The position numbers and the translations under genes are program-made. This document shows positions 6,201 to 60,150 of a stretch of 64,000 bases of DNA, piece after piece (position 1 is the stretch's first letter; every line of letters begins with the position of its first letter). The DNA comes from Bolinopsis microptera (taxonomy: Eukaryota; Ctenophora; Tentaculata; Lobata; Bolinopsidae). Where the stretch lies: positions 19,744,103 to 19,808,102 of the forward strand of contig NC_087072.1 in assembly GCF_026151205.1 (NCBI RefSeq), in the 5' to 3' direction. The notes below the pieces were generated by a model. That model was not told the DNA's origin. It saw nothing but the letters and a program-made list of their open reading frames with translations, and did no database searches.

Positions 6201-7932
6201 ATATTACTATTGAAAGGGATTTTGCAACCCTTGAATAGCTTAGGTCTGCACCCCTGAATAGTTGATTTCCCTACCGGAACCTTTTCAATACCTACATATA
6301 TTATTAATATTAGTGCTGTCACGTTTAAAACAAAGATCGAGTAAAATGATAAATTAGGTAACAGAGACGATTGAATCATGATTAGTGACCGTCTGGGTTT
6401 GAACTTCACAACATTTTCAGGTCCAGAATCGTGTTATCAAGGTGAATCAAAAGCAGACTATGAAGTCGAAATTGTAGCAATTTGCGCAGGCAAGTGTTTG
6501 GGAATTAATAAGTTGAAATCCCACTTTATGATTAAGTAAGACGGACCTTGGAAGTCAATTGTATCTGTATCATTTTTATTTTATTGGACAATTTTAACAT
6601 ATTAGGTCCTGAACCGTGCTCGAAAGAACCAGAAATCGCAGTTTGCGGGGGTTTGAAAGAATCAGAAATCTCAGTTTGCGGGGGTTTGAAAAAACCAGAA
6701 ATCTCAGTTTGTGGAGGTTCGAAAGAACCAGAAATCTCAGTTTGCGGAGGTTCGAAAGAACCAGAAATCTCAGTTTGCGGAGGTTCGAAAGAACCAGAAA
6801 TCTCGGTTTGCGGAGGTTCGAAGAACCAGAAATCTCAGTTTGTGGAGGTTCGAAAGAACCAGAAATCTCAGTTTGCGGAGGTTCGAAAGAACCAGAAATC
6901 TCAGTTTGCGGAGGTTCGAAAGAACCACAAATCTCAGTTTGCGGAGGTTCGAAAGAACCAGAAATCTCAGTTTGCGGAGGTGAGTGCATTTGAGAAAACC
7001 AACAAATTCAACTGCTGGTGTGGAATAATTTTAATGAATTGAATTAATTAAAATTATAAATTAGGTGACAGAGACGATCGAATTATGATCGGCGACCAGT
7101 GGGTTTGAACTTCACAACATTTTCAGGTCCAGAATCGTGCTATCAAGGTGAATCAAAAGTAGACCATGAGGTTGAAATAGCAATTTGCGCAGGTAAGTGT
7201 TTCGAAATTATAATAATAAAATTCCACATTTAGTAAGACGGACCTTGGAAGTCAATTGAATCTGTATCATTTAAAAAAAACTTGATTTAACATTGAAGCC
7301 TTTATAACACATTAGGCCCCGAAGTGCAGGATTACTACGTGGAGGAGACCGACTGTCACGTCAAGGAATCCGACCTGGAACACTGCGGAGCAATTGAACT
7401 GGGCCATCATGTTGAGAGTACAGACAACGAAATGCACTTGGTCGGACACTCAACCTGCGGAGAAGTTGTGGGGCAGCCAGGATATACAGAGACGGTGACC
7501 TACAGCCAGTGCGCTGGCGAAGGAGAGGTTGTGGTTGTGGAGAGTCATAGCGGGCATCATAGACATGCGATGAAGGACAAATTGCACGGGATGAAAACAA
7601 GAGTTGACCATTTCTTCCATAGAGGACACCATGACGATCAACATCATGGTGATGAACACCATGACGACCAACACCATGGTGATAAACACCATGGAGACCA
7701 CCACCACCACCATGACAGTCATGACCACCATGATAGAGAGCATGATCACGATTCTGACGGTGGCGAAGACGAGCACCACAGCTTTTTTCACAACATGAAG
7801 GGAAAAGTAGATCATTTCTTCCACAGAGATCATGGTCACGGTGATCACCACGAAGAACATCACCGTGAAGAACATCACGGTCATGGAGAAGGTGACCATC
7901 ATGACCATGGTCATTCACAGGAACAGCCATGA
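3248..7932 (+). CDS. Unrecognised Ser/Lys-rich, Cys-repeat and His-rich protein, six-exon model
   Basis: I do not recognise this family. Proposed exons: 3248-3494, 5889-5933, 6421-6489, 6606-6979, 7127-7192, 7316-7932; every junction is phase 1. Exon 1 encodes an acidic start, a run of eleven serines and a very basic Lys/Arg segment. The middle exons encode short modules that start with Gly-Pro-Glu and carry one or two Cys ([15 protein letters not shown] and [10 protein letters not shown] types). The last exon encodes about 205 residues with Cys-containing spacers, then two copies of a KxxVDHFFHR-like motif separated by long His/Asp/Glu runs that could bind metal ions. No signal peptide is visible. 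Exon 6606-6979 is an expanded array of 374 bp and breaks the frame; without it the model is 1,044 bp and closes in frame (347 residues). The intron after 6489 starts with GC (G|GCAAGT). Linkage of exon 1 to the rest is inferred from matching phase and order. Confidence 0.6.
3935..4391 (+). repeat. 21-bp G-rich minisatellite
   Basis: About 21 near-identical copies of a 21-bp unit (GGAGATGTGGGGG followed by ATATATTA or TTATATTA), with occasional 2-bp length variants. The unit is a multiple of three, so the stretch looks open in frame, but it has no other sign of coding. It lies in the first intron of the six-exon gene model. The strong strand asymmetry (G-rich top strand, runs of five G) could favour G-quadruplex or R-loop formation. 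Confidence 0.95.
5875..7315 (+). repeat. Tandem duplication of a two-exon cassette (about 0.7 kb each)
   Basis: Two successive blocks carry the same order: acceptor ending CATATTAG, exon starting GTCCTGAACC, donor GGAGGTGAGTGC, then an ACAGAGACGAT stretch, acceptor TTCACAACATTTTCAG, exon starting GTCCAGAATCGTG, and a GACGGACCTTGGAAGTCAATTG stretch. Block 1 runs about 5875-6592 and block 2 about 6593-7301; the last exon then begins after a third copy of the same acceptor (TTATAACACATTAG). Introns and exons are both conserved, so the duplication is recent at the DNA level. Confidence 0.85.
6606..6979 (+). repeat. 33-bp coding minisatellite within an exon, one base short
   Basis: A first 45-bp unit equivalent to the single-unit exon at 5889-5933 is followed by ten more 33-bp units ([11 protein letters not shown] type, one Cys per unit). 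Eleven units should give 375 bp; the exon is 374 bp because one A is missing in the AAAG of the seventh unit near 6821. After that point the intended reading frame is lost, though the shifted frame also stays open. The same splice donor as the single-unit exon closes the array. Confidence 0.85.
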
Positions 7933-14963: not shown

Positions 14964-16712
14964 TAATTTGAAGGGCGATATGGCGTACCGGCAGGTGGCA
15001 CGTAGCAAATTTCATTTCGTGGAATTTCCTAACAATTTGATACTTATAACTCGAATATATTGTAGATATGGGTATTAGCTTGGCATATGGCCATAACTCC
15101 GGGCATCTTTTGGCTAGGTGAGCATGACGTTACCTAATTCATTACAGGGTTCTGTCTATTTTACTAAACTATGTTGTATTGTTGTAGGTCTCATCTTCAC
15201 TGAACTTCATTTACTTATATTGATAGTAGTATTGATATCAGTTTAAAGTCACAATAAGTCACGTAAAATTATTATCTTTTACTGTGGTTTAGAAGTCTAG
15301 ACCGCTTATAAAATCGAAATGTTGTCGAATACAGTTCGATTTTATTGTATTTTTATTTAACATATTCCATTTAACAATGTATTCCATTCAACATACTGGG
15401 CCGATATTATTGTTATAAAAACGGAGAGACAAATTAGTGGCCGAATGTTTTAAACCCCATAATCGTGTCAAGAATAAATTGAGTGAAAATTGAAGATGGA
15501 CAAGTCTTGACACGTTATTTCTGCAGCTGTTAAAGTGTCATAAATACCTTGTCGACATGATCTGATAAAACTCCTCCTATATTTACTCTCATTTTTCTTT
15601 CAAAAGCTCGATCTGTTACCAGGGAAAGTTTGCAAGCTTTCAGTTATAATTAATTTCTCGTAAAAATTAAAGTTCTCTAACAGTTTCCTACTAATGACTG
15701 TTCCACGTACTCGACAAGTTTAATGCTGGTCGTCATTTGGCCAGCTACCTCAACGAAGTCCACGTGTCTACCATTTTCGGCCTGCTTTGATCTGATCTCA
15801 GTTGAATTCTCTACGTATCGAGGTAGCGGTGCCAGTAGTCATTGACAAGGCCGCATATCCCCAGCTTGCTCAACTAATTTAGCTGATCCTGTCCAATATT
15901 TCTGCCTGAATGTCGCAATCTTCGCTGTTATATAAAGTTGCTGCTGCATGGAGCCACGGTATTGCACCATTTAAAATCAAAGGGATATTTAATATTCTCT
16001 CGGCATACTGCTCCCTACCACGCACACCATCTTGTATCACCACAAAACTGACATTTCTTTCTGATATACCAATAATATTTGACCCTCTGCAAAGTAAGGT
16101 TGATAGCGACATCACGTGACCCCCGCCATTTGGAAGCATGCCAAGGCAATAAGATTCCTTTCATCTGACAGCTCAATGACTTTACTTTCTGATTATGTTC
16201 GAAATTTGAAGCATCACCGGGCCAGTTCCATAGCATCACAAAACATTGGTCACGGTATATCTCTCGGGCTTCAGTACGTGGCGACATTTCCCGACGCGAT
16301 CAACACGTCATGCGTCAACTCCGTTTAAAGTTGACCGTCACCAAAAATTTGGACTGTTTTTAAGTAGGCTTCAGGCCTAGTAAAGTCCTCAGAGACACCC
16401 CTTTTATGGTAATTCTTCATGCATACAACGGGATTGAACAAATTAGATAGAATCCCACAAATTAAGTAACATCTTTGCTTAGGATAGATGAGTCTTTACG
16501 AATTCTAGACATGTTTAGGGATTCCAGACATATCTCAGCTTTCAGCTAATTTTGTCGTAAAGATCATAAATTCATCAAACGGTTAAAGTCACCACAATTG
16601 ATTTTTGAACCGAGGTCAATTATTTGGGTCAGCGGTCAATTTATTCGATTATTTCGCCCTTTGTTTGAAACTTTTCTGACAATTTCAGGACGTTTGACGT
16701 CTAAGTTTTTTT
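14964..16712. other. Gene-poor region upstream of the NC1 gene
   Basis: No supported gene. Around 15879-16290 both strands carry overlapping open frames of 60-90 codons in relatively GC-rich sequence, possibly an eroded mobile element or gene fragment. None has a recognisable motif or a paired splice structure. Confidence 0.35.
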
Positions 16713-16765
16713 AGCTCTCTTCCGCTCTCTCTCGCTCTCTCTCGCTCTCTCTAGCTCTCTCTCTC
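16713..16765 (+). repeat. (CT)n-rich microsatellite
   Basis: A CTCTCTCTCG/A repeated run immediately upstream of a TATA-like stretch and about 140 bp before the NC1 gene ATG. Confidence 0.85.
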
Positions 16766-16776
16766 TATATATATAA
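16766..16776 (+). promoter_or_regulatory. TATA-like element upstream of the NC1 gene
   Basis: TATATATATAA lies 129 bp upstream of the ATG at 16905, next to a CT-rich tract. It is a reasonable core promoter candidate, inferred from position only. Confidence 0.35.
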
Positions 16777-16904
16777 GTACATACCACATGTTTCCAATCG
16801 TCAGTTTTGAATTCCTATATATAGTTATGGCAGTTGTACGTCGATGACTTGACCTGTAAAAATCGTTCGACCAAGTATTTTGCCACTAAACTCACTAAGT
16901 AATT

Positions 16905-19896
16905 ATGCTCGTCAATAAATTGTACTCTTCACTCAGAAATACAGCTATGTTTTTGTTGCTGATCAGCGCCGTTTTGGGTGGAGTTTACGGGATCATGGAC
17001 CTGAAGGACGCTCAACAGGATACTTCCTACGACAACAAGTATCCATACCCGCGAGAACCACGCAGTGGAACCACGGCTGGAGGTGAGACTTGTATCTGAT
17101 TTTATAGTTTATTCCACCATGAATAGTGTATTAACTCATTTGCCGTTAGTCTCGTGCATGACGTGCCTAGTGAAACAGCAGCGTTGTATTCTAATCTTAA
17201 AATTATCGGATAATATCTTGTTGTCTGTAATCGTTACTTTAACTGCTCCATTTTTGCGGATTTAATATTAATCAGCTCATGAGTCACGTAAGAAATTGTG
17301 CTTTTGCAGAATTTATTGCTTCGTTAATGTTACTGTTATAGCTGTTTAGTGTCTATAAATATGTATTTATACTAATATGAATATCCTATAGTTCTATTCT
17401 CTCTAATATCCTACCCAATAGATTATGTTTTGTTGCATAATGGAATTATATACAATAATGAAATTCAAATCCAAGACTGAGCTGTAATAATCCACCGACA
17501 AGGGTAGAAGTAGATTTGAATGTCTATATTCTGTGAATACCTGGTAACTAAGCTATAGCATTAGCTATAAAAACTAATTACTTCAGATTTCCGAGTGCTG
17601 GCCAGACTAGCACTACTGGAGAACAAGATCGAGGGAGTTGAAGCTGACTACGGATACGGCAAGATATTCGCCATGCACCTCCAGTCTAACGAGACACCCG
17701 TGTGTCCAGTGGGAACCTTCAAGCTCTGGGTCGGATACTCTCTTGTCAAAGCTTTCGTGAGTCTGCCCTTATAATCTTGTCTAGCTAAGAATTAGGAAGA
17801 ATGTTTTTAAAAAGTGGTGATGATGTTTATGTCATTATTCTTGATTTGATTTGATTTTAGCCTCATCTTATCGTATTTTAGTATTTCGCCTTAAGTCTGG
17901 TCCCATTAAACTCTGAGGGACATGATATCGTCTAGTCATCTAATTTGGGTATCGGCTTCAAAATATTGGGACAATAGGACGCCGGGATATGTATTTAAAT
18001 GTGGCAAAATCATTACTAATAAACTATAAATTCAGACTGAGTTGCCATCCAAACAAAGTATCTTATCTTAGTTATAAGAAATATTCGCACCAGCCACCAA
18101 GCATCATATTAAGATTCATGAATTTGGTTAGTCATTTGGGTCAGATGAATTTGGCTAAGCTGCAGAAACCTATTGCATCGTACTTGAGGAGCTATTTCCA
18201 TTAAGGGAATGGATTACTTCATGAAAATGGCTCCATAAAACTATCACGCCAGAGCTTACAATTCCAGAAATGGTTTTAACTGAGGATTCATCACGTACCG
18301 TTCGTGCAACAAGGAATGAAGGAACCAGAAATTGAAATGGAAATGAAAAAAAAACTAATTCAACCTTTATCAATTAAACAGACCGTAAATCGATAAAAGT
18401 GGGAGAATTAATTAAGCGGAGTAATTTGATACATGTAGAAATGGGAGGGGATTGGGTCCTGGCTCGGGTAACATGATCAAGATCCGATTAAAATGGATTG
18501 GAATTCTGGGTATTTAACAAACTATTTCTAGAGACATAACACATCAAATACTCTAGGACGGTTCTGGATACATAGATCTGTCAGACCCTGGCTCCTGCAT
18601 GAGGAAATTTGATCCTGTACCTCACGTCCTGTGTCGTGGAAGAAAGTGTAGACTCAGAGGAAACAACTGGAAATCAACATGGCTTTGGAACAGGTATTGA
18701 AAATCAACATCTTGAATTTTCCTGATTCCAGCATATTCCGCCGAGCAAAACTTTTCAATTCTTCAAAAACTATATCGTACTGAAATTGTAAAACATAAAC
18801 TTAAAGTTTCCTTATCCTATTCTCTATTTTTCAATGAAAACTAAGAAAATTAAACCTACAGGAACCCCCACAATCGTAACGGAGAGATAATGGCTAGTCG
18901 ATGTAGCGTCTGTGAGAGCGCCAAGACTCTTCTCGTCGTCCACTCTCAGAACGAGACTGTGCCAGACTGTCCCATGGGATACACCTCTCAACACTTCTGG
19001 TCCGGGTTCAGTTTCATATCGGTTAGTTCGGACACTCAGTTATCATGTTAATGATCTTCGACTCCAAATTGCATGGCAATTGGCAATCCTTGTATTTTGA
19101 TAATTCCGATAACCACTATCATAAATCATTATACATGCGTGTACATTGTACAGTGTACATACTAAACTGAACAAAGATAACGCGCTGTCTAGCGTTAAGT
19201 ATAGTCAATCTCTAAAAAGTTCTCATACATCATACGTCTTATTATAATACCGTAAAAGTATAAAAACAGTCAATTTTTCAGGCTGGTCAGTCTGGAAAAG
19301 TGAGTCTCTCCTCGATTGGCAGCTGTCTCCCTTACTTCGAGTCCTCTCCCTTCATTGAATGCAACGGTCACAACGAGTGCAGGGTTAGTTCCATTTCAAT
19401 AAATATTTTCTATTTTTCAGTCAAGTTTTATGATTTAGGAGTAGCTGGATTAATTCCTGATTCAATAGTTTGATGCTTATAAAAACATAGGGCACGTTGA
19501 TGTTATGTGGTCTATAATTTTAATAAAGATAGTGCACATTTTTTCTCCGATTCAAGAAAAAAAACCACTTACTACTTAGGATTAGGAACACTTGGGGTGC
19601 CACATTTTGCTTAACAAAATAAAAATGAGAAAAATTAACACTTAAACCTATCGAGGTTAAATTTAACGGAGTCATAAACTATTCTTCATCTTTATCAACA
19701 GGTGGTTCAAGCATCCAATGTGTGGCTGAGAGTGGCACACAAGGAAGGAGGAAAGAACACCCACTCTCGGGATACAATCAGTGCCAAGGAAGCGTGGAGG
19801 AAGATCAGCAGATGTCGGATCTGTGCTCTGTACACCCCAACCTTGTGGCCGAGGGACAGGCACCCCATCGGTGAGGAGCATAACGGCTTCAAATAG
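16905..19896 (+). CDS. Secreted collagen IV-type NC1 domain protein without a collagen helix
   Basis: Exons 16905-17082, 17587-17756, 18557-18693, 18862-19021, 19282-19383, 19702-19896; the model closes at 313 residues. Exon 1 encodes a signal peptide (core MFLLLISAVLGGVYG; a second in-frame ATG at 16947 would start exactly there) and a short Tyr/Pro-rich linker. Exons 2-6 encode a complete tandem C4 (NC1) domain. Half 1 has CPVGT, LWVGYS, GSCMRKF, VLC, and SRCSVC; half 2 has DCPMGY, GSCLPYF, IEC, NEC and SRCRIC. All twelve structural cysteines are present. NC1 domains normally trimerise and network collagen IV in basement membranes. There are no Gly-X-Y repeats in any exon, and the linker between signal peptide and NC1 is only about 55 residues. 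Sponge spongin-type short collagens are the nearest comparison I know, and those still have a helix. The role here is inferred to be extracellular matrix. Confidence 0.93.
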
Positions 19897-21302: not shown

Positions 21303-24300
21303 TCACATGTTAAGCTCATCGCAGAGAGGGTTTCTAAATGCAAACTGAGCCTCGTCGTCCTCACTATCCTGAATGTACGGCTCAACAGCCAGATCATGGG
21401 AATCGTCCGTAACTTCGATGGTTACTCCGGGATTTTCTTGACCGTAAAATTCAGCGGGAGGTCTGTTCCGGTTAAAGAAGCCCACCTTGTAGAGGATGAT
21501 GACGATGAGGGAGAGGAAACACAGGCCACCTGTGATGGAGCCCACAATGATCCAGATACTCACTGGTCTAACCAAATCAGCAACTGCTATCACCTGAAGA
21601 GGAATAAGAACGGGCCCGGTTAAGCTGTTAGACGTCAGATCTGCTCCAGAGTCCTTGTTTGCGACCCACGCCCGGACGGATGCGTTGATCCGAATAGGTT
21701 CCTGAAATGTGAGCTCCCAAACGTAGGAAGTTAGCCTGATCCCCACAATGTCCTTAGTTAGTTTAGCTATGGTGCAGCTTATGTTAATGCAGTGCACATC
21801 ACGCCCGCACTCATAGGACACACGCTGAACAGTGTCTTCATCAGGTCGAGGGTCAGCTAGTAAGGAGTCCTGTATTTCTCCCAGTGTAGATGGTCGAGGT
21901 AATCGGGATGAACGTTTGGTCCTTTTTGTCTTACTAGCGGTGGGTACATTGTGGACATTCAGGAGGTCCACTTCGCAAACGATGTCGGTACTGGAATCAA
22001 CTTTATAAGGATAGATAAAATCCTCATTTTGAGTAGAGTTGAGAGCGAAGGGAACTTCAATTATCAACTCAAGATCATGCAGCTCACCCGGTCCGTAGTT
22101 TATAGGAAAGAATTGCGTTTCCAGAGCTCCACTTTTACTGATATCACTAACAAAGTTTACCTTCGTTTCTTTATCTCTTATCTAAAGTATAAGATGGGAA
22201 TTACATAAATTGCAAATTTGATTTTTCTATCGATATTTTTATTCTTATATCTTTATATACGGCCAAGATATTCCTTTATCACCTTAGAAGAATTTCTGAT
22301 AGGCTGAAACCAGATAAATACTCGTGTAGTTATAACCTACGGCTACAGGAAATTATTCGGGGTTTCAAGTATTTCTGACGTTATACTTTTGGCCTTTTTG
22401 GGGCTTCTCCACGAGCTGGATGAAATTAAACATCAGCTTTGTTGGAACAATCATTGGAAGCGAGATATGGCAACACGTGAACTATCTTCAATTATCTTAT
22501 TTTTTAAATGCTGATTTTTACGCGACACCCCGTGACGGTCACTGCGTAATACTAATTATCTGTACCAAGTTTTTAAAATGTCAACCAGAAATATCTCAAA
22601 CATATTTGTGTTTAATTTTCTCTGTGCCAATGTCAGAAGTAGAAAAATCCTGATTTTTTGACCTAATTAGGCTTCATTATACGTATCAAAGCCGTTTGAT
22701 AAAATCTTGAAACCTTGCCAACTTCCTGAAAAGCCATTATAGCCTGATGAATATAAGCATCAAGCACTGGCTGCTACAATAGGATACGAGTTGAGTCAGG
22801 CTCAAAATTCTATTCAATTATAAAATCTACCGTGGAGCAGTCCTTTAACATACCTCGAATGGAACTTTGTACCGGGAGGATGTTCCCTGAAGTTCTAACC
22901 GTGCTAGCCGTCTGAGGGTTATATTCTGTGTCATGACATTGTTGTCAGGGTGTTTGTCTTCACTGCCCTCTGTCACCAGTTCTGTTCGAATAATCACTTC
23001 TTTTGCACCCTGTTTTAAGTGTCGAGATTGTAATTTCAAGCAGGGTGAAAAGTAATAAAAGTTGGAGGATTGAACATGACAAATATTAACATTGTTAATA
23101 CTGATCAGTTACGAACCAAATTCTATTTCATTCACCTCAGCCTTAACTCCAGTAACTGAGTATTCCACAGAAAAGTTGAACTGTGTCTCATTGGTATCCA
23201 TCCGCTCATCCAAGCCACAGTAATAGTTCCCCTCCCTCACAGAGAAGGGGGTACATATCGACAGCTTCGTACCGTCTGCTCCTCTCACATTCTTAATGTA
23301 CATTGAAGCAGGCATGGTGATGAGAATGTGAGAACCGAAGGGTTTGCCCAGGGATATGTTTCTTGTGATACTGTAGTTGGACCAAATAAGTTCGTTGAAT
23401 CCCGGGTAGAGAACTCCAGCTCTAGTTCCGACCTCAGCCCTGATTAATTCCTCCGTGTTAAAAGTTATAAAACTGTGATTATAATTCCATATTTAGATTT
23501 TCTTCCATATTTAGAACGTTTCTCCTAGAGTAACACAATGGCGGCTTATGATATCTCACAAACGTAAAATCACCCCAGAAATCGTCAAAGTGCGTCTTAG
23601 AAGTCCTTTCAATCTCGTCAAAGTGCGTCTTATTAGTTTTTAAGAATTTATAGTTCAGGAATACTAATGATCTTATAGATGACGGATGACCAGGTTTTTA
23701 ATTTTTATTAGGAACAAGTCACCTCATTTACTGTCGATCATTCCAGAATAATCCACCCAACTTTTTGATAATAATCTTTGATCTTCGAGCTTTTACTCAT
23801 AATTTTCACACAATTCGGTTCTCATATTGACAGTCGTGTTGGAATAATATTGCGGTAAGTAAATATCTTAATGAATTATTACTTGAATATATTATGCATA
23901 GTAAAATCACTTAACACTACAAAATGACGCACTTGTCAAGGATAACTCCAGGGGATGCCAGTCTAAGGTCAGTTTCACAAGTAGCGTTAGCACATGCTGT
24001 TTTAATCTTAACCTGTAAAAAGAATTTTTAAACCATTAATGACAACAACCTGTTGCGCAAACAAAAGTATGATTTTTACGTCAGAGAGTATATTCTGGAT
24101 AAATTGAGCGGAAAGTCTTGATTTAAACACAAAACTGTTAAACTGAATGCTGTTCGGTTCTTTGAAATCCAGTTCTCTCGAATTGGAAGTGTCACTTCTA
24201 TTTCAGTATGTAATTGGTGATAAGTTGATATTTATAATAGCTGCTATTCGACCTGTGATATAGCGTAGGGATACCGAGAAACGTTCAGAGCCAATCTATT

Positions 24301-27300: not shown

Positions 27301-27844
27301 TTATTCCTCTTTTTGTGTACCTAGGTGACAAGATCGTATCTAAAACATAGAGTAGGAGGATACTGGCACTTCTTAGATATCTTGGAAACAACACATTCTA
27401 CCACTGAGATAAGATGTCATATCTTAGAGACAATTTTCACTATTTTTATACAAAACAGACGTACCTGTGTGCACAGGTTACAGCAACAGAAGTGGTAGGA
27501 TCGACAGAGAGGGTGACACCAGTCCACTGCCCCTCTTTCACCTCATCCTTAACTTCCGGAATGTTGTCCACTATCACCTCCTTGCACTGATAACCACTAT
27601 CACCCTCACCACTACTGCAATTATACACTGAGCCCCAGCTTGCTCCGACAGTGCCGTCTTTAAGTGTGATGTTAGCTGTGGGGGCTCCGACCAGCACCCA
27701 TCTGGAGGCTCCAGACCTCTGGACAGCGGTGGAGTAACCGAAATATTCTCCGGGAGATTTTCCAGTTAGAGAAAGAGGGTCGAGGATGTCGATGTTGTAA
27801 GGATGAACTGTTATTATCAAGGCTAGATATATCAACAGAACCAT
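21303..27844 (-). CDS. Integrin alpha chain, no I domain
   Basis: Type I membrane adhesion receptor chain that pairs with a beta chain. Thirteen exons, 5' to 3': 27844-27465, 27320-27183, 27033-26640, 26488-26347, 26228-26065, 25947-25808, 25324-25146, 24797-24640, 24375-24253, 24012-23933, 23439-23136, 23009-22854, 22160-21303; together 1,072 codons with the stop. A signal peptide is followed by YNIDILDP and GEYFGYS, the standard start of the beta-propeller. Later FG-GAP blades carry calcium loops DINKDGLDD and DIDDNGYPD. There is no inserted I domain. Exons 7-12 hold the Cys-paired thigh and calf regions. Exon 13 contains a furin-like KRTKR site, a single transmembrane helix, and KVGFFNR, a variant of the conserved GFFKR that clasps the beta chain. 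The acceptor before exon 13 is weak. Ligand class cannot be read from sequence. Confidence 0.95.
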
Positions 27845-28095
27845 TAAAAACAAATTGGATTAATCTGGATCGGTCTAAATAGCAATGCGATTGTTCAGGA
27901 AATTTGTGAGCAGTCCCAGAACAAATATAGGTCAACTTCTTGACTACGAGTACAAGCAAATAAGTGCAATTTGAGACAATATGATACAGTCAGTATTATA
28001 TTGAATTACCAAAACTTGTGTGCTGTACACCCTTCAGCAGATATACACTGACACTAAAGAACCATGGATACATGTGATGTAAGCTGAGAGCTTAC

Positions 28096-43772: not shown

Positions 43773-44126
43773 TGTACAACTAAGAGAAGCGTATCTGCTT
43801 TACTCGAATATGTGTATATATATTATATAAACGTAGTCTATCTATATATGGTGTTATTCTACTGCACCAGATATCATTCTCCCATCCTAGTTTAGGGTTA
43901 CAAATTAGCTGTGAAGTTAAAATTATTTGCAAATGATCACATTAACAACCATATAAGGAATAAAAGCAAAGCTAAGTTAATACACTGCGCAAGGCACTCT
44001 TTTGATGAGGTGAGGTATGGCTTAAGTTCAAGACGTTCACTATAACTCATCTCTAGTTTTTAACATCTGCCACCTGCGTTTATATATTGCCTCGAGAGTT
44101 GTTTGGACGGAATTATTGCTGCTGAA
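43773..44126. promoter_or_regulatory. Bidirectional intergenic region between NEK1 and the GT31 gene
   Basis: Only 354 bp separate the divergent start codons. TATA-like stretches occur near each: TATATATATTATATAA around 43815-43830 on the NEK1 side and TTTATATATT near 44079-44088 on the GT31 side. A shared promoter is an inference from spacing. Confidence 0.4.
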
Positions 44127-45035
44127 ATGGAGTTTCATCCCTTCACAAAGATTTTGATGGTGATATCCTTACTTTTAGCTGCGTTTGTATTCTTAACTCA
44201 AAGACCTGTTGTTATCAGGGAAGAACTCTCTACATCACCAAAGATTTTTTTAAACCTTGACAAATTGGCAGTGAAAAAAGAGAAGTATTTTGCAGTATTT
44301 TTGATACCGACACTGCCTGGTAAAGTCAAAAACCGGAACACAATAAGAGAAACTTGGGCAAATTTTACAGCATGGGCAGCATCCGAATATATAGAGGAAC
44401 AATTCAAAAACTTCAAAATCATGTTTGTAGTAGGTAAAATAACTAAAAAACCTTATTCAGAAGAGTTTTTGGAAGAAGTTTCAACCCACAACGACATTTT
44501 TATTGCTTCTAATTTGGAAGAACACAGAACTGTTCTCAAATACAAAGTTTTGTGGGGATTGAAACGTAGTCAGCACCTCTATGACTACAAGTTCTTAATA
44601 AAAACTGACGATGACATACTAGTGAATCTCCCGATTGTGTTGGAAAAACTTAAGTCAATGGATAGTCACATGATGTACGGTGGTGAGTGCTTCATGGAGT
44701 ATGGTGGATTCGACGGTTATCCGAAGTGGAGATATTGCTCTGGAGGAGGGTACATTTTATCATATGATATAATTTCAGCAATGTTAAAACTAGATGATGA
44801 AGTACACCAGGTTCCTTTCAGACCAGAAGACGGCTATGTGGGATGGTTGGTCTACAATGTAAATAAAAACTTGAACTTTTCATTAAAAGTACCTAAAAGA
44901 TTTACTCACTGTCTGAAAACATATGGCTATAAGTGTGGGGTTTATGATCATTGGTTTTATCATTTTGTTAACAAACCTGAGCAAATGAAATCATTATTTC
45001 AAAATGTTAATACTAATTCAATAGTTGAGTGCTGA
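44127..45035 (+). CDS. Beta-1,3-galactosyltransferase family (GT31) glycosyltransferase
   Basis: A Golgi type II membrane enzyme adding galactose or N-acetylhexosamine in beta-1,3 linkage from a UDP-sugar; donor and acceptor cannot be read. The chosen ATG gives 302 residues, with a hydrophobic signal anchor close to the N-terminus (ILMVISLLLAAFVFL), a short stem and the catalytic domain. Family motifs in order: RNTIRETWA, a FKIMFVVGK strand, the KYKVLWGLK helix, the metal-binding KTDDD, YCSGGGYILS, and EDGYVGWL (in place of the usual EDVYVG). A single exon is common in this family. It is slightly shorter than typical members, mostly in the stem. Head to head with NEK1. Confidence 0.92.
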   Translation: MEFHPFTKILMVISLLLAAFVFLTQRPVVIREELSTSPKIFLNLDKLAVKKEKYFAVFLIPTLPGKVKNRNTIRETWANFTAWAASEYIEEQFKNFKIMFVVGKITKKPYSEEFLEEVSTHNDIFIASNLEEHRTVLKYKVLWGLKRSQHLYDYKFLIKTDDDILVNLPIVLEKLKSMDSHMMYGGECFMEYGGFDGYPKWRYCSGGGYILSYDIISAMLKLDDEVHQVPFRPEDGYVGWLVYNVNKNLNFSLKVPKRFTHCLKTYGYKCGVYDHWFYHFVNKPEQMKSLFQNVNTNSIVEC

Positions 45036-53341: not shown

Positions 53342-54697
53342 TCAGAATTCAGTGAAATTTCTGTCACACCACTCAGTTCCATACCGGTTTTGAGCTCTTA
53401 GAAGTGACTGTTTAAGTAAATTCTTGACAGATCCGCATGTGGAGGTGAAATTTAACGGGCCAACTTTACGGAATTCGTTCCACAGCCATGCAGATTTATA
53501 AATAAATTGATTAGTTGGAGAGGGTGTAATGAACAGATTATCTTTCCTATTTGATATGTTGAATAAGTAGTATAACGAAATTGGTACTCGTGACTTAATG
53601 ATCTTAAAAAGTTCCATTAAACAACGGTATCGGTACAGGTTCTCTGTAACAAGTAATTCATGTTTTGTGAATAGAGGCTTAGTGGACTCTTTAACATAGA
53701 ATTCAGATCCTAGACGTTGAGAATTAATTGGTCTTGCTCTAGCACATGTCTTGAATTTGTCTACATAAGCTTCATAGTCTCCAAATAGAATCCTGATACA
53801 CTTCTTTTGAGTAATAAATAGTGGTTTTAACTGATTATTGGGAATACCTCCCCAGACAGAAATAGCATAACCTAGGTGTGATTCAAAGAGAGAATGATAT
53901 ATTTGTTTATATAGTGATTCTGGTAAGCATTTCTTAATACGGTAGATACGTCCACAAGCACTTCTTAGTTTCTTGTTGAGGGATGATATATGTGGTTTCC
54001 AGCTCAATTTATCATCCATGATTACTCCGAGAAACTTTGTCTGACTTACACGTTTAATTATTTTGTTATTAATGGACAAGTTTTGGCTATCTATATCGGC
54101 ATCTAATTCGTTATTATTACGTTTAGAGGGAGAAAAATACATGTAACAACACTTCTTTACATTAATGTGCAGTAGGTTAACTCCCATATACTTGTTTACG
54201 GCCTGTAGTACTTCATTAGCCAATTCATATGCTTTATTTCTCGAATCGGCAGCGACAAATATATTAGTATCGTCTGCAAATAAGACAAATTTACCCTTTT
54301 TAGTTATATTGCATATGTCATTGATGTACAGTAGGAAAAGTAGAGGTGCTAATACACTACCCTGAGGGACCCCGAATTCAACCGGTAATTCATCAGATTT
54401 GGTATCCAAAACGTTTACAAATTGTTTCCTATTAGACAAATAACTAGAGATAAGATTCAGAGCATTTCCTCTTATGCCATAGTTGTTTAATTTTGTAGTT
54501 AGTTTACAGTGGTCTAGAGTGTCAAAGGCTTTTGAGAGATCGATAAAGACCCCTAGGACATGTTGCTTTTTACTAATTAACGATTCTATATGTTCTACAG
54601 AGTAGTTCAGTGCATGGCTGGTGGAGTGTCCTTTTCTAAAGATAGATCGGAGCGCAGCAAAAAATTTAATAGCTTGTCCTGGACCGAATTCTACCAA
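53342..54697 (-). pseudogene. LINE reverse transcriptase, 5'-truncated
   Basis: A long open frame of about 450 codons on the minus strand without the endonuclease or the first reverse transcriptase block. Motifs in order: FRKGHSTSHAL, FIDLSKAFDTLDH, GVPQGSVLAPLLFLLY, FADDTN (catalytic DD), TKFLGVIMDDKLSW, and a C-terminal region with SHLGYAISVWGG and NLYRYRC. This is the CR1/Jockey-like non-LTR pattern. The frame is intact to a stop at 53342, so the insertion is fairly young, but it cannot be autonomous. Confidence 0.9.
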
Positions 54698-56391
54698 ATA
54701 TTATCACTACAAGTATAACACTTTTCGGATTTAGAAGGGTGCTGTCCAGACTATGAGTATGTTAACAGTGCGCGGTGATATGATTGAAGCTGAAGTCAGC
54801 ACTAAAAATTAAAGTAGATATTATTATTAGAAAATATATGAATTTGGGACAAAATAATTTACTATCGAAGTTGATTCACGATGTCAATCCTTCGCAGCTC
54901 GGTGAGGCACAGTGGTGCATCTCGCCGATCCATCTCTGGTTGCGAGAAGCATTATTTGATGCGCGCGCGACCCAGTAGTGCATCGCGCTACAACTATCGA
55001 AGGAAATAAATATTAACTTTTTGATAAGAAAAGCGATTACTAACTACAGTTACACAAACACTGCATGGCAATACGATTACAAATTGTTTATTAAATGTTA
55101 AATCCGGGTATCGCTATTAGTATTGTGCTATTGTGCCAAAATTACAATATTATATGGTCAATCGTAATCATTTGCAATTTGGAAGACCCCTTTGCTGATA
55201 TGTAAACGACCCCTTATATTAACTTGATTGTAGCAAACCGCGTGATGTTTATTGATCATCAGTTCGATAGGACGATAGTTATGAGAAAAGCTACAAAACT
55301 ACAATTTCCATAACCATTTTTATAACTAAACGCTTGATTGACGGTTCAGAATTTTATTTGAATAACAGGGCCTCCCACGGATTAAACAGTTTTGTGCGGA
55401 GAAAGAAGTGAAGAGAGTACGAAGCCAAAGAGTTCTCCGACAATTGTTCCAGCTAGCCTCACCGCAGCAACGCCAACAGCAAGCAGGGACTTATCCATGC
55501 AAGGCCCATGCAACCTATACAACGCTGACCCAGAATGGACATGCCACGGTACCACTATAATATTTGCTTTTATTCTCCTTGATTGCACTAGCAGTAGCAG
55601 AATTTGCTGCTTGTAATTCCTGGGCGTTGCTGAACCTGTCATTCCGCCCTATCTGCTATAGGCATATTTTTAATCGCCATAATATGTTCAATGTTAAATC
55701 AATGTGTTTAACTTAATAAATACAAAAGCCTGAGCGAGGTATACCGTTCCCAGGTAAATTCATCTTTGCAAGTTGAATTTGCGTTTCTGAAACCACTCTC
55801 TGCACTGGTAATTGTATTTAAAAGGGAACACAAAATGATGTACGTGACCAAAATTATTCCCCGCGCGACGCAATTAGATTCTCTTTCAGCATTAAGTTTC
55901 AGTTTCTGGGTAATTCGCGCGTAAAATCATATTTGCACGTGTGCGTTCCATGTTCTCAGAATTAGGCAACGGTAAGTTTAATCTTTAACTTTAACCGTTT
56001 TGAAACAGGTGCTGTTATTTCATGCTGGGAATCCCAAAAAGTGCTTGATCGGCCAGTTCATCATTGTGTCTTGCTAAATACTTGGTTAGTTTCATTATGC
56101 TTCGACTAATCATCACTGTTGGATTGGGGATGGTATTCAACTGTTGAGGGCCTACTGTAACAGCCATTGATACGCTTATAGTTATCAGACAGCAACTAAC
56201 TGATATCCAATGGGTCTCAGCCATAGAACAATACAGGCTCAACGGTGGCTCGGAAAAGTATAATCTTCATGGTCTTATATATGATTTTGGTCTATTAGAA
56301 CGAGTTTTAAGTGAAATATATCCTCCAGAGATGATTACTAATAAAAATAATACTTCAGTTCGTGAAACTGACTTTTTAGATATTTATAGTC
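54698..56391. other. Region with a dispersed repeat copy, no gene
   Basis: Includes copy 3 of the dispersed family (about 55630-55765: CCTGTCATTCCGCC and GTTCCCAGGTAA blocks). ACTATCGAAG occurs twice near 54858-55000 around a CG-rich stretch. Overlapping frames at 55382-55642 on both strands have no motif. Confidence 0.4.
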
Positions 56392-58195: not shown

Positions 58196-60150
58196 AATGG
58201 ATTACACAGGATTTACACAGGATTACACAGGATTACACAGGATTAAGGATTTACACAGGATTAAAATTAAATTATAGATCCATTATCATGGACCGTCATA
58301 ATTGTACAGAAAACGGTGGCAGTGAATATGGAGGCTCTGGTGATTTTGAGGAATTACAGTTGAGTAAGGAGACACAATTTCCATAAGATGGACTTTGAGA
58401 TTTGTTTCATTCACATTGATATTGCTTGAGTCGGTGATTTCAGTGCTTATTTCAATGAGTGGCATTTTAGAAAGATTTTTGACTAATTTCGACCTCTGTT
58501 TTGAATACAAGTCACATATGTAAAGAACATGTGACTCGTCTTCGATGGTCTCAACGCCCATACTTGATTGACACCAAGCACATAGTCTTGGCTCACGGGG
58601 TGTGTTGGAGTATCTGCCTTTTTCAATATGGAGATCATGGGCGCTGATTCTAAGTTTTGTGGTGCTATAACGACGAGAGAAGCCTTTGCACAAGTGTAAT
58701 TAGGGCTCTCGGTTGAATGTGTGTTTGATTGAGTGATAGAATGAGAGTTTAGAAGAATTAGATTTCTGATATTCCCAACATTTTTTAAATTGATTGGTTA
58801 GAGCTTTGACGATGTTAGGAATTCTATACTTTTTGCTGCATAGTGGTTTGATACATTGACTAAAATTTGACTGATTTTTGAGGGAGTCTTTAAATAATTT
58901 GTGATCACTTACAGGGTTGGGCTCGGCTTTGTTGGCTGCATTTGTATTGAGAATTCGGTGCGCGGTTACGTGATCTAGTTTGTAAATTTCACCTAGTTCA
59001 AGGAGTGGTTTTATGTATCGATACCAAGGTAAGTTTAGTGATTTTTGTTCTTTTACGGCTGCAGTTACAAACGAATTCGACTTTGATTTTGTATTTAGCC
59101 TTTTGAAGTAATTTAATGTTAAGCGAATTGATTGATAAATCAGAGGAATTCTCCCTGTTTCTCCCCATACACCTACATTTGATGCTTTACGATGGACTCC
59201 CAATGCCCATTTCAGGAATGAAATATGCACTCTTTCTTGCAGAGAGGCGCTGATTTTTTAAAAGTAAGTTTGTAGCGGTTGCTTCTGTCGAGTTAATCGT
59301 TTTGCAAAGAGATTTATTGATCGTACTAGTGGGTGTCCATATCGGAGCACCATATAATAGAATGGGCTTGATGAGAGAGTCGAACAGTGTAAGGAGTGCT
59401 TTAAAAGATAACTTTGAACGCATGACAACCCTTTTCAGGCCAAAAAATGCACGCATTGCTTTGGTTTTAAGGTTTTGTTGAGCGATCTGCACTTGACCCG
59501 ATTGATGAAGTTCAAATCCAAGGTAACAATAATTGTCAAAAATTTCAAGATTAGATCCGTTGAGTGTAAATTTGATGTTTTGTACGTCCTGTTTTAACGC
59601 TTTCTCACCAAAGATGACTGTTTGAGTTTTGAGTTCATTGATTTCAATGCCCCACTCCTTACAAAATTACCGAGAATATTAAGTTGCATTTGAGTGGTTT
59701 CTTGATCGAGTGAAAGGAGTATAAGGTCATCCGCCCACAGCAGGTGGCTAACAGTCATATTTGAAAGTACGGGGCAATTTGGAAAATCTAGGAGGCAGGA
59801 CATATCACTGAGAAAAACTTTAAAAGGGTCAGTTGAGGGTGGGTGACCTTGTTCTGTACCTTTACGTATCTGAAAGCGTTTACTAAGATGACCAGATAAT
59901 TTTATGTAAGCGTACGAGTTTGAGTACATATTTTTGAGGACATTGTAGAAATTTCCAGTTATGCCATTTTTTGCGAGTTTGAGGAAAAGGGCTTGACGGC
60001 AGACTGAGTCGAATGCTTTTTTAAAATCAACAAATACTGCAAATACAGGTTTCCCCTAAAGTTTATATTTTGAAGCTATAGTTTTCATGGTTAGTATGTG
60101 ATCGTGTTGAAGTACATATGTGATGGTTTTTTCTGCTCGATAAAGTTAGT
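58196..60150 (-). pseudogene. Broken LINE reverse transcriptase with microsatellite 3' tail
   Basis: Reading leftward: a reverse transcriptase with FVDFKKAFDSV (after a stop codon near 60056), RKGTEQGHPPSTDP, WADDLILLS (catalytic ADD), then a frameshift, PILLYGAPIW, another frameshift, and a C-terminal Cys/His region (LCAWCQ, ESHVLYICD). The element ends at 58196-58262 in tandem AATCCTGTGT units, a short-repeat tail typical of some non-LTR retrotransposons in place of poly(A). It differs from the LINE at 53.3-54.7 kb in sequence and motifs. Inactive. Confidence 0.85.

Follow-up and report, generated by a model that had tools for sequence, protein, structure and literature searches.

The NC1 domain is what starts the assembly of collagen IV, and a gene that encodes this domain with no collagen helix in front of it raises the question of what such a product does on its own, and from what kind of gene it came. 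One gene of this type lies in the stretch of Bolinopsis microptera DNA analysed here (64 kb, hereafter the window; GC content 38.6%).

Gene structure and domain content

The standalone NC1 gene spans 16905-19896 on the plus strand in six exons and, according to the splice model, encodes a product of 313 amino acids (Table 1). These exon coordinates had been proposed in an earlier note on the same DNA and proved exact, with GT..AG borders in 5/5 introns and a joined frame that is open for 942 bases through to the stop codon. Two TATA-like matches (16766 and 16816) were found by pattern search in 16500-16905, upstream of the gene, and no initiator pattern was found in that interval.

Table 1. 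Features of the standalone NC1 gene, in window coordinates
Feature	Position	Strand	Description
TATA-like element	16766..16771	+	Candidate core promoter only; pattern match 139 bases upstream of the start codon
Exon 1	16905..17082	+	Start codon, signal-peptide-like segment MFLLLISAVLGGVYG (visual), first part of the linker; splice model
Intron 1	17083..17586	+	504 bases, phase 1; longest Gly-X-Y run 1 in six frames
Exon 2	17587..17756	+	Coiled-coil-like linker FRVLARLALLENKIEGVE, start of C4a, sequon NET (residue 94)
Exon 3	18557..18693	+	C4a, in which G-N-N-W replaces the human S-R-N-D of the chloride-switch loop
Exon 4	18862..19021	+	Remainder of C4a, with the stretch ahead of SRC shortened; C4b begins, carrying HSQ and sequon NET (residue 192)
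Exon 5	19282..19383	+	C4b; preceding intron matches a paralog intron in position and phase
Exon 6	19702..19896	+	End of C4b, 23-residue C-terminal tail, stop

The Pfam search assigned a single family to the product, C4 (PF01413), in two stretches (E value 5.9e-42), and 12/12 of its cysteines align on the 12 of human alpha-1, in agreement with the complete tandem C4 and twelve structural cysteines that the note had described. Its relatives in the PDB comprise 13 distinct sequences, which are NC1 chains of collagen IV, and the single-NC1 chains 1m3d, 1li1 and 8tys match it with E values of about 1e-33 to 1e-36. Visual inspection of the N-terminus reveals a clear hydrophobic segment that resembles a signal peptide, as had been claimed, and if cleavage follows residue 29, a site chosen by eye, the linker between this segment and NC1 has 55 residues, the length that the note had given approximately. 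The tail beyond the last cysteine comprises 23 residues.

The proposal of a free-standing, secreted NC1 is thus right as far as can be read from the DNA, and such genes have been known in ctenophores since 2017. Fidler et al. (2017, eLife; PMC5395295, available text) reported an NC1-only gene in 10/10 ctenophore species examined, one of them a Bolinopsis, called it unique to the phylum Ctenophora, and gave predicted signal peptides for at least three, namely ML047918a from Mnemiopsis, pp_COL4_i from Pleurobrachia pileus and PBNC1_1 from P. bachei. These three are like the window gene in belonging to a ctenophore genome and in encoding NC1 only, with no collagenous part; where they have a predicted signal peptide, the window gene has its signal-peptide-like hydrophobic start, and no difference from them is known. 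The window gene most likely represents this standalone NC1 gene of ctenophores in Bolinopsis. Because Fidler et al. had reported such genes, the central claim of an NC1-only secreted gene is not new, and a literature search for standalone NC1 genes returned no other report. What is new here is the coiled-coil motif of the linker, the lost docking residues, and the two sequons together with the 23-residue tail; no discussion of the linker or of docking residues in NC1-only genes was found in the available text of PMC5395295.

Absence of a collagen helix

Gly-X-Y repeats were sought in every register of the six frames. The longest run was 4 in the whole window, 2 in 14.5-20.3 kb, 1 in intron 1 and 2 in the NC1 protein itself, and the same scan applied to 17 stretches carrying paralogs gave runs of 7 to 49, except for one (L006; 3). 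The claim that no exon carries a Gly-X-Y repeat therefore stands, and at the level of sequence the 17.1-17.6 kb intron, where skipped helix exons might have been hidden, holds none. A Pfam collagen search of the genome, in which 150 of 1332 candidates were scored, placed no match in or near the window among those listed, and the closest listed match on the same chromosome lies about 4.6 Mb from the NC1 gene. Missed helix exons were rejected as an explanation, since neither the Gly-X-Y scans nor the collagen-repeat search, among its 150 scored candidates, found any nearby. The long interrupted Gly-X-Y helix with an N-terminal 7S/NC3, by which a collagen IV is recognised, is not found in the product.

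Helical paralogs in the same genome

A search of the genome for C4 returned at least 48 exon matches, three in the window and 45 elsewhere, the latter being taken as 17 stretches. These correspond to at least 15 helical genes and an extra giant helix exon (L011), giving 16 units in which an NC1 starts. In 14/16 of the units the open frame that leads into HSQ (HSH in two) contains a Gly-X-Y run, and 10-28 residues separate the end of this run from the HSQ or HSH; the frames of L007 and L012 are too short for a run (18 and 13 residues, respectively), although runs of 46 and 18 occur in the stretches of these two. Among the C4 matches listed in this genome, no C4 gene other than the one in the window is without a helix. 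L006 was considered as a second NC1-only gene and rejected, as it forms the 3' half of a helical gene together with L018 and L005. The labels Group I-like and Group II-like, as used below, follow Fidler's chloride-motif criterion and the tree, and imply no orthology.

Some of the paralogs have peculiarities of their own. Several structural cysteines have been lost from the second C4 of L007 and L008, both of which are helical and Group I-like. L011 (C13:4157500-4160000) and L010 (C13:4151500-4154500) are tandem giant helix exons with open frames of 1746 and 1709 codons, and they may share downstream NC1 exons, because the upstream one ends in LWVG and no further NC1 follows before the next signal-peptide-like start. 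The collagen IV-like genes L009 (C13:12472000-12477500) and L012 (C13:4514500-4522500) lie about 8 Mb from each other and are nearly identical, a likeness that reflects either a recent duplication or an assembly effect.

The linker

Residues 61-78 of the linker (FRVLARLALLENKIEGVE) include five in-register heptad core residues, V63, L67, L70, I74 and V77, which take the core positions in alternation. Within this segment RLALLE, at residues 66-71, fits the trimer motif R-hxxhE, which is completed by R66 and E71 in register with the core; the register of the motif is Arg(g)-h(a)-x-x-h(d)-Glu(e) (PMC3653964, available text). When the 55-residue linker was shuffled, 15/200,000 shuffles did as well as the real one in motif and core, a figure that flatters the pattern because the pattern was chosen after the linker had been seen. 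The R-hxxhE motif occurs in 0/16 of the helical NC1-start units when the open frame is followed back from HSQ for up to 80 residues; in L007 and L012 this frame comprises no more than 18 and 13 residues, respectively. An AlphaFold model of exon 2 alone places a helix at its residues 3-14 with a mean pLDDT of 55, which is too poor to count, and the predicted coiled coil spans only about two heptads. Taken together with its heptad register, the R-hxxhE motif predicts a trimeric coiled coil and is no demonstration of one.

Docking residues, sequons and length of C4a

The residues at positions 64, 66, 76, 78, 175, 179, 187 and 189 are described as serving the chloride-dependent formation of hexamers (PMC6527180, available text). 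Based on the alignment, the window product has L, R, N, W, E, H, Q and S at the corresponding human positions, and Glu175 is the only one of the eight human residues that is kept; the chloride switch R76, D/E78 and E175 accordingly reads N, W and E. Both partners of the sulfilimine bond, Met93 and Lys211, are likewise absent, the former lying opposite a gap and the latter being replaced with Ser. Among the helical paralogs the switch trio is kept in 8/14 rows; the other rows include two with K-D-E (L016 and L017) and four Group I-like rows that have no R76, two of which are partial. The alignment also reveals that Viking of Drosophila likewise has no chloride switch, yet it is part of a hexamer, and Ctenophora are said to use a mechanism that does not depend on chloride (PMC10694668, available text for both). 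Loss of the switch is for these reasons no proof of a loss of docking.

Each C4 of the product carries one N-E-T sequon, directly after HLQ in C4a and after HSQ in C4b, the two being one residue out of register with one another. Sequons are present in 2/14 paralog rows and 0/4 reference rows, none of them at the places found in the window product. The C4a stretch from Trp-Leu to SRC contributes to the strand swap by which NC1 trimers are held together. It has 16 residues in the window product, versus 24 in human alpha-1 and 25 in L002, and is also short in the model of L013.

The product can thus be set against known proteins. It shares the tandem C4 and the 12 cysteine places with the NC1 of collagen IV (human alpha-1 and alpha-2; Cg25C and Viking of Drosophila), but has no helix, 7S, chloride switch or sulfilimine residues, and it differs from this NC1 also in the shorter C4a, the extra sequons and the tail. 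Arresten, canstatin and tumstatin, which are NC1 fragments released from collagen IV, are likewise free NC1 domains with no helix, but they are cut from a collagen, whereas the window NC1 is encoded as such. The spongin short-chain collagens are similar as short secreted proteins with an NC1-type end; they keep a short helix, as the note had stated, and are missing four collagen IV cysteines and HSQ (PMC5395295, available text). The window protein, in contrast, is free of a helix, has the full set of 12 cysteines and carries HSQ in C4b (HLQ in C4a).

Proposed role of the protein

Beside the gene structure, domain content, missing helix and changed residues observed above, we infer a coiled coil, a trimer, the lack of a hexamer and a role as ligand, as follows. 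The protein, in which a short linker joins a signal-peptide-like start to an entire NC1 of the collagen IV type, would be secreted. The linker would form a short parallel three-stranded coiled coil, which would hold three NC1 chains together in place of the collagen helix. Having no chloride switch, chloride-binding residues or sulfilimine partners, the trimer would stay soluble, with no head-to-head docking, and may act as a diffusible ligand of the matrix or of receptors on the cell surface. It would then be the gene-encoded counterpart of the fragments that in other animals are released from collagen IV by cleavage of its NC1. In Drosophila, entry of a helix-free NC1 trimer into the basement membrane shows that NC1 by itself is able to travel and to bind (PMC10694668, available text). 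It has also been suggested that the C-terminal tail of Viking may block premature hexamers (PMC10694668, available text), and the 23-residue tail of the window product could therefore act likewise. To this reading as a whole we assign a probability of about 0.5. That NC1 trimers may assemble unaided counts against the role of the coiled coil. If the reading is true, an NC1 devoid of both helix and docking residues separates the signalling role of the domain from its building role.

Of the two roles that the note had suggested, a soluble NC1 fits the lost docking residues, and a cap at the docking surface fits them less well. As a cap, the helix-free NC1 would join the collagen IV of the matrix by docking onto a trimer of collagen NC1 or by mixing into trimers, and would end or space the network. 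We consider this possible but doubtful. It has some chance because in Drosophila a single-chain, helix-free NC1 trimer is secreted and enters the basement membrane (PMC10694668, available text); moreover, Glu175, the acceptor of the switch, is kept, and the genome offers at least 15 helical C4 genes as docking partners. On the other hand, the product has kept none of Arg76, Asp78, Arg179, Asn187, Tyr189 and the two sulfilimine residues, and the two new sequons and the longer tail may crowd the surface.

A possible receptor for a soluble NC1 trimer is encoded next to it. An integrin alpha gene (21303-22181, minus strand; PF20806, E value 6e-12) lies tail to tail with the NC1 gene at a distance of 1.4 kb, and probably extends to about 27859, since the frame at 27446-27859 resembles by eye the start of an integrin propeller, although Pfam assigned no family to it. 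PF20806 was found at four places in the genome, one of which is that beside the NC1 gene, and PF08441, the second integrin model, at one place, elsewhere than this neighbour. That the two genes are neighbours was noticed only in retrospect, and their tail-to-tail arrangement means that they have no shared promoter. NC1 surfaces are said to bind integrins (PMC10694668, available text). It is conceivable, though we hold it rather unlikely, that a collagen IV gene exchanged its helix for a coiled-coil trimeriser and shed its docking chemistry, becoming a dedicated soluble NC1 signal, and that the neighbouring integrin alpha may be its receptor.

Origin of the gene

In a tree of 19 NC1 rows the window sequence has an end branch of 3.14 changes per column and is placed near bilaterian sequences; it does not belong to the starred group that 10 Group II-like rows form, and its highest identity is with human alpha-2 (39% over 205 columns). 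A tree in which all ctenophore rows were held together was not rejected (p-AU 0.161). In a tree of 30 single C4 domains, each half of the window NC1 is placed beside the bilaterian collagen IV halves of its own kind, with support of 75/35 for C4a and 92/93 for C4b, both unstarred. This second tree is weak, its bootstrap being unsettled and 2/14 C4b rows (L007 and L008) falling on the C4a side; holding all C4b together gave a p-AU of 0.311. Neither a position of the window outside all other rows (p-AU 0.107 for C4a and 0.166 for C4b) nor a position with the ctenophore rows (0.099 and 0.169) was rejected. Rooting by C4a versus C4b was abandoned on account of the unstarred support, the misplaced L007 and L008, and AU values that exclude nothing.

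By reading of the gene models, intron 4 is in phase 0 after the eighth residue from Trp, and an intron of that position and phase is found in seven paralogs (L002-L005/6 and L014-L016). L004 and L008 have an intron near the place of intron 2, but of a different phase, and no match was seen among the paralogs for introns 3 and 5. Shared introns were rejected as proof of descent, as 1/4 of the NC1 introns matches and the order of helix gain is left unsaid by such a match.

A canonical full collagen IV with C4-C4 was described in the filasterean Ministeria by Grau-Bove et al. (2017; PMC5560861, available text). The helix-bearing form therefore predates animals, and loss of the helix is consequently favoured, although not proved; we consider it more probable that a collagen IV gene lost its helix than that an NC1 from before collagen survived. 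The latter has been proposed in the Discussion of Fidler et al. (PMC5395295), where the NC1-only gene is presented as the forerunner of the collagen IV NC1, a gene that never had a helix. The window NC1 is indeed not grouped with the helical ctenophore genes, its best identity is with a human chain, and the outside placements given above were not rejected. This account fits poorly with the collagen IV of Ministeria, however, and also against it are the placement of the window halves inside the collagen IV halves, with unstarred support, and the position and phase that intron 4 has in common with seven helical paralogs. The trees lean against a forerunner and exclude nothing, and we regard it as unlikely. 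The published claim is in this way put to a direct test, for which the tree, the intron position and the linker are the features to trace in other ctenophores.

Decay of a collagen IV gene into a functionless remnant would agree with the very long branch and the lost assembly residues, but it is very improbable in view of a six-exon open frame with canonical splice sites, in which 12/12 cysteines and the HSQ of C4b are kept, even as the helical L007 and L008 have lost cysteines. Least credible of all is a collagenous isoform to which exon 1 is an alternative start, or to which it does not belong, being part of another gene: one paralog does have an intron of about 8 kb, but against this stand the short Gly-X-Y runs of the window and of intron 1, the in-frame GT..AG splicing of the signal-peptide-like exon 1 to exon 2, the TATA-like elements upstream of exon 1, and the NC1-only genes, at least three with predicted signal peptides, in ctenophore transcriptomes (Fidler et al. 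2017, available text).

Other features of the window

Two frames on the minus strand, at 53342-54700 and 58286-60055, resemble by eye LINE-type reverse transcriptases. A 33-base repeat in eleven copies, open on both strands, is located at 6620-6981. A single long open frame on the plus strand, at 44064-45035, contains a galactosyltransferase domain (PF01762; E value 5.2e-18).
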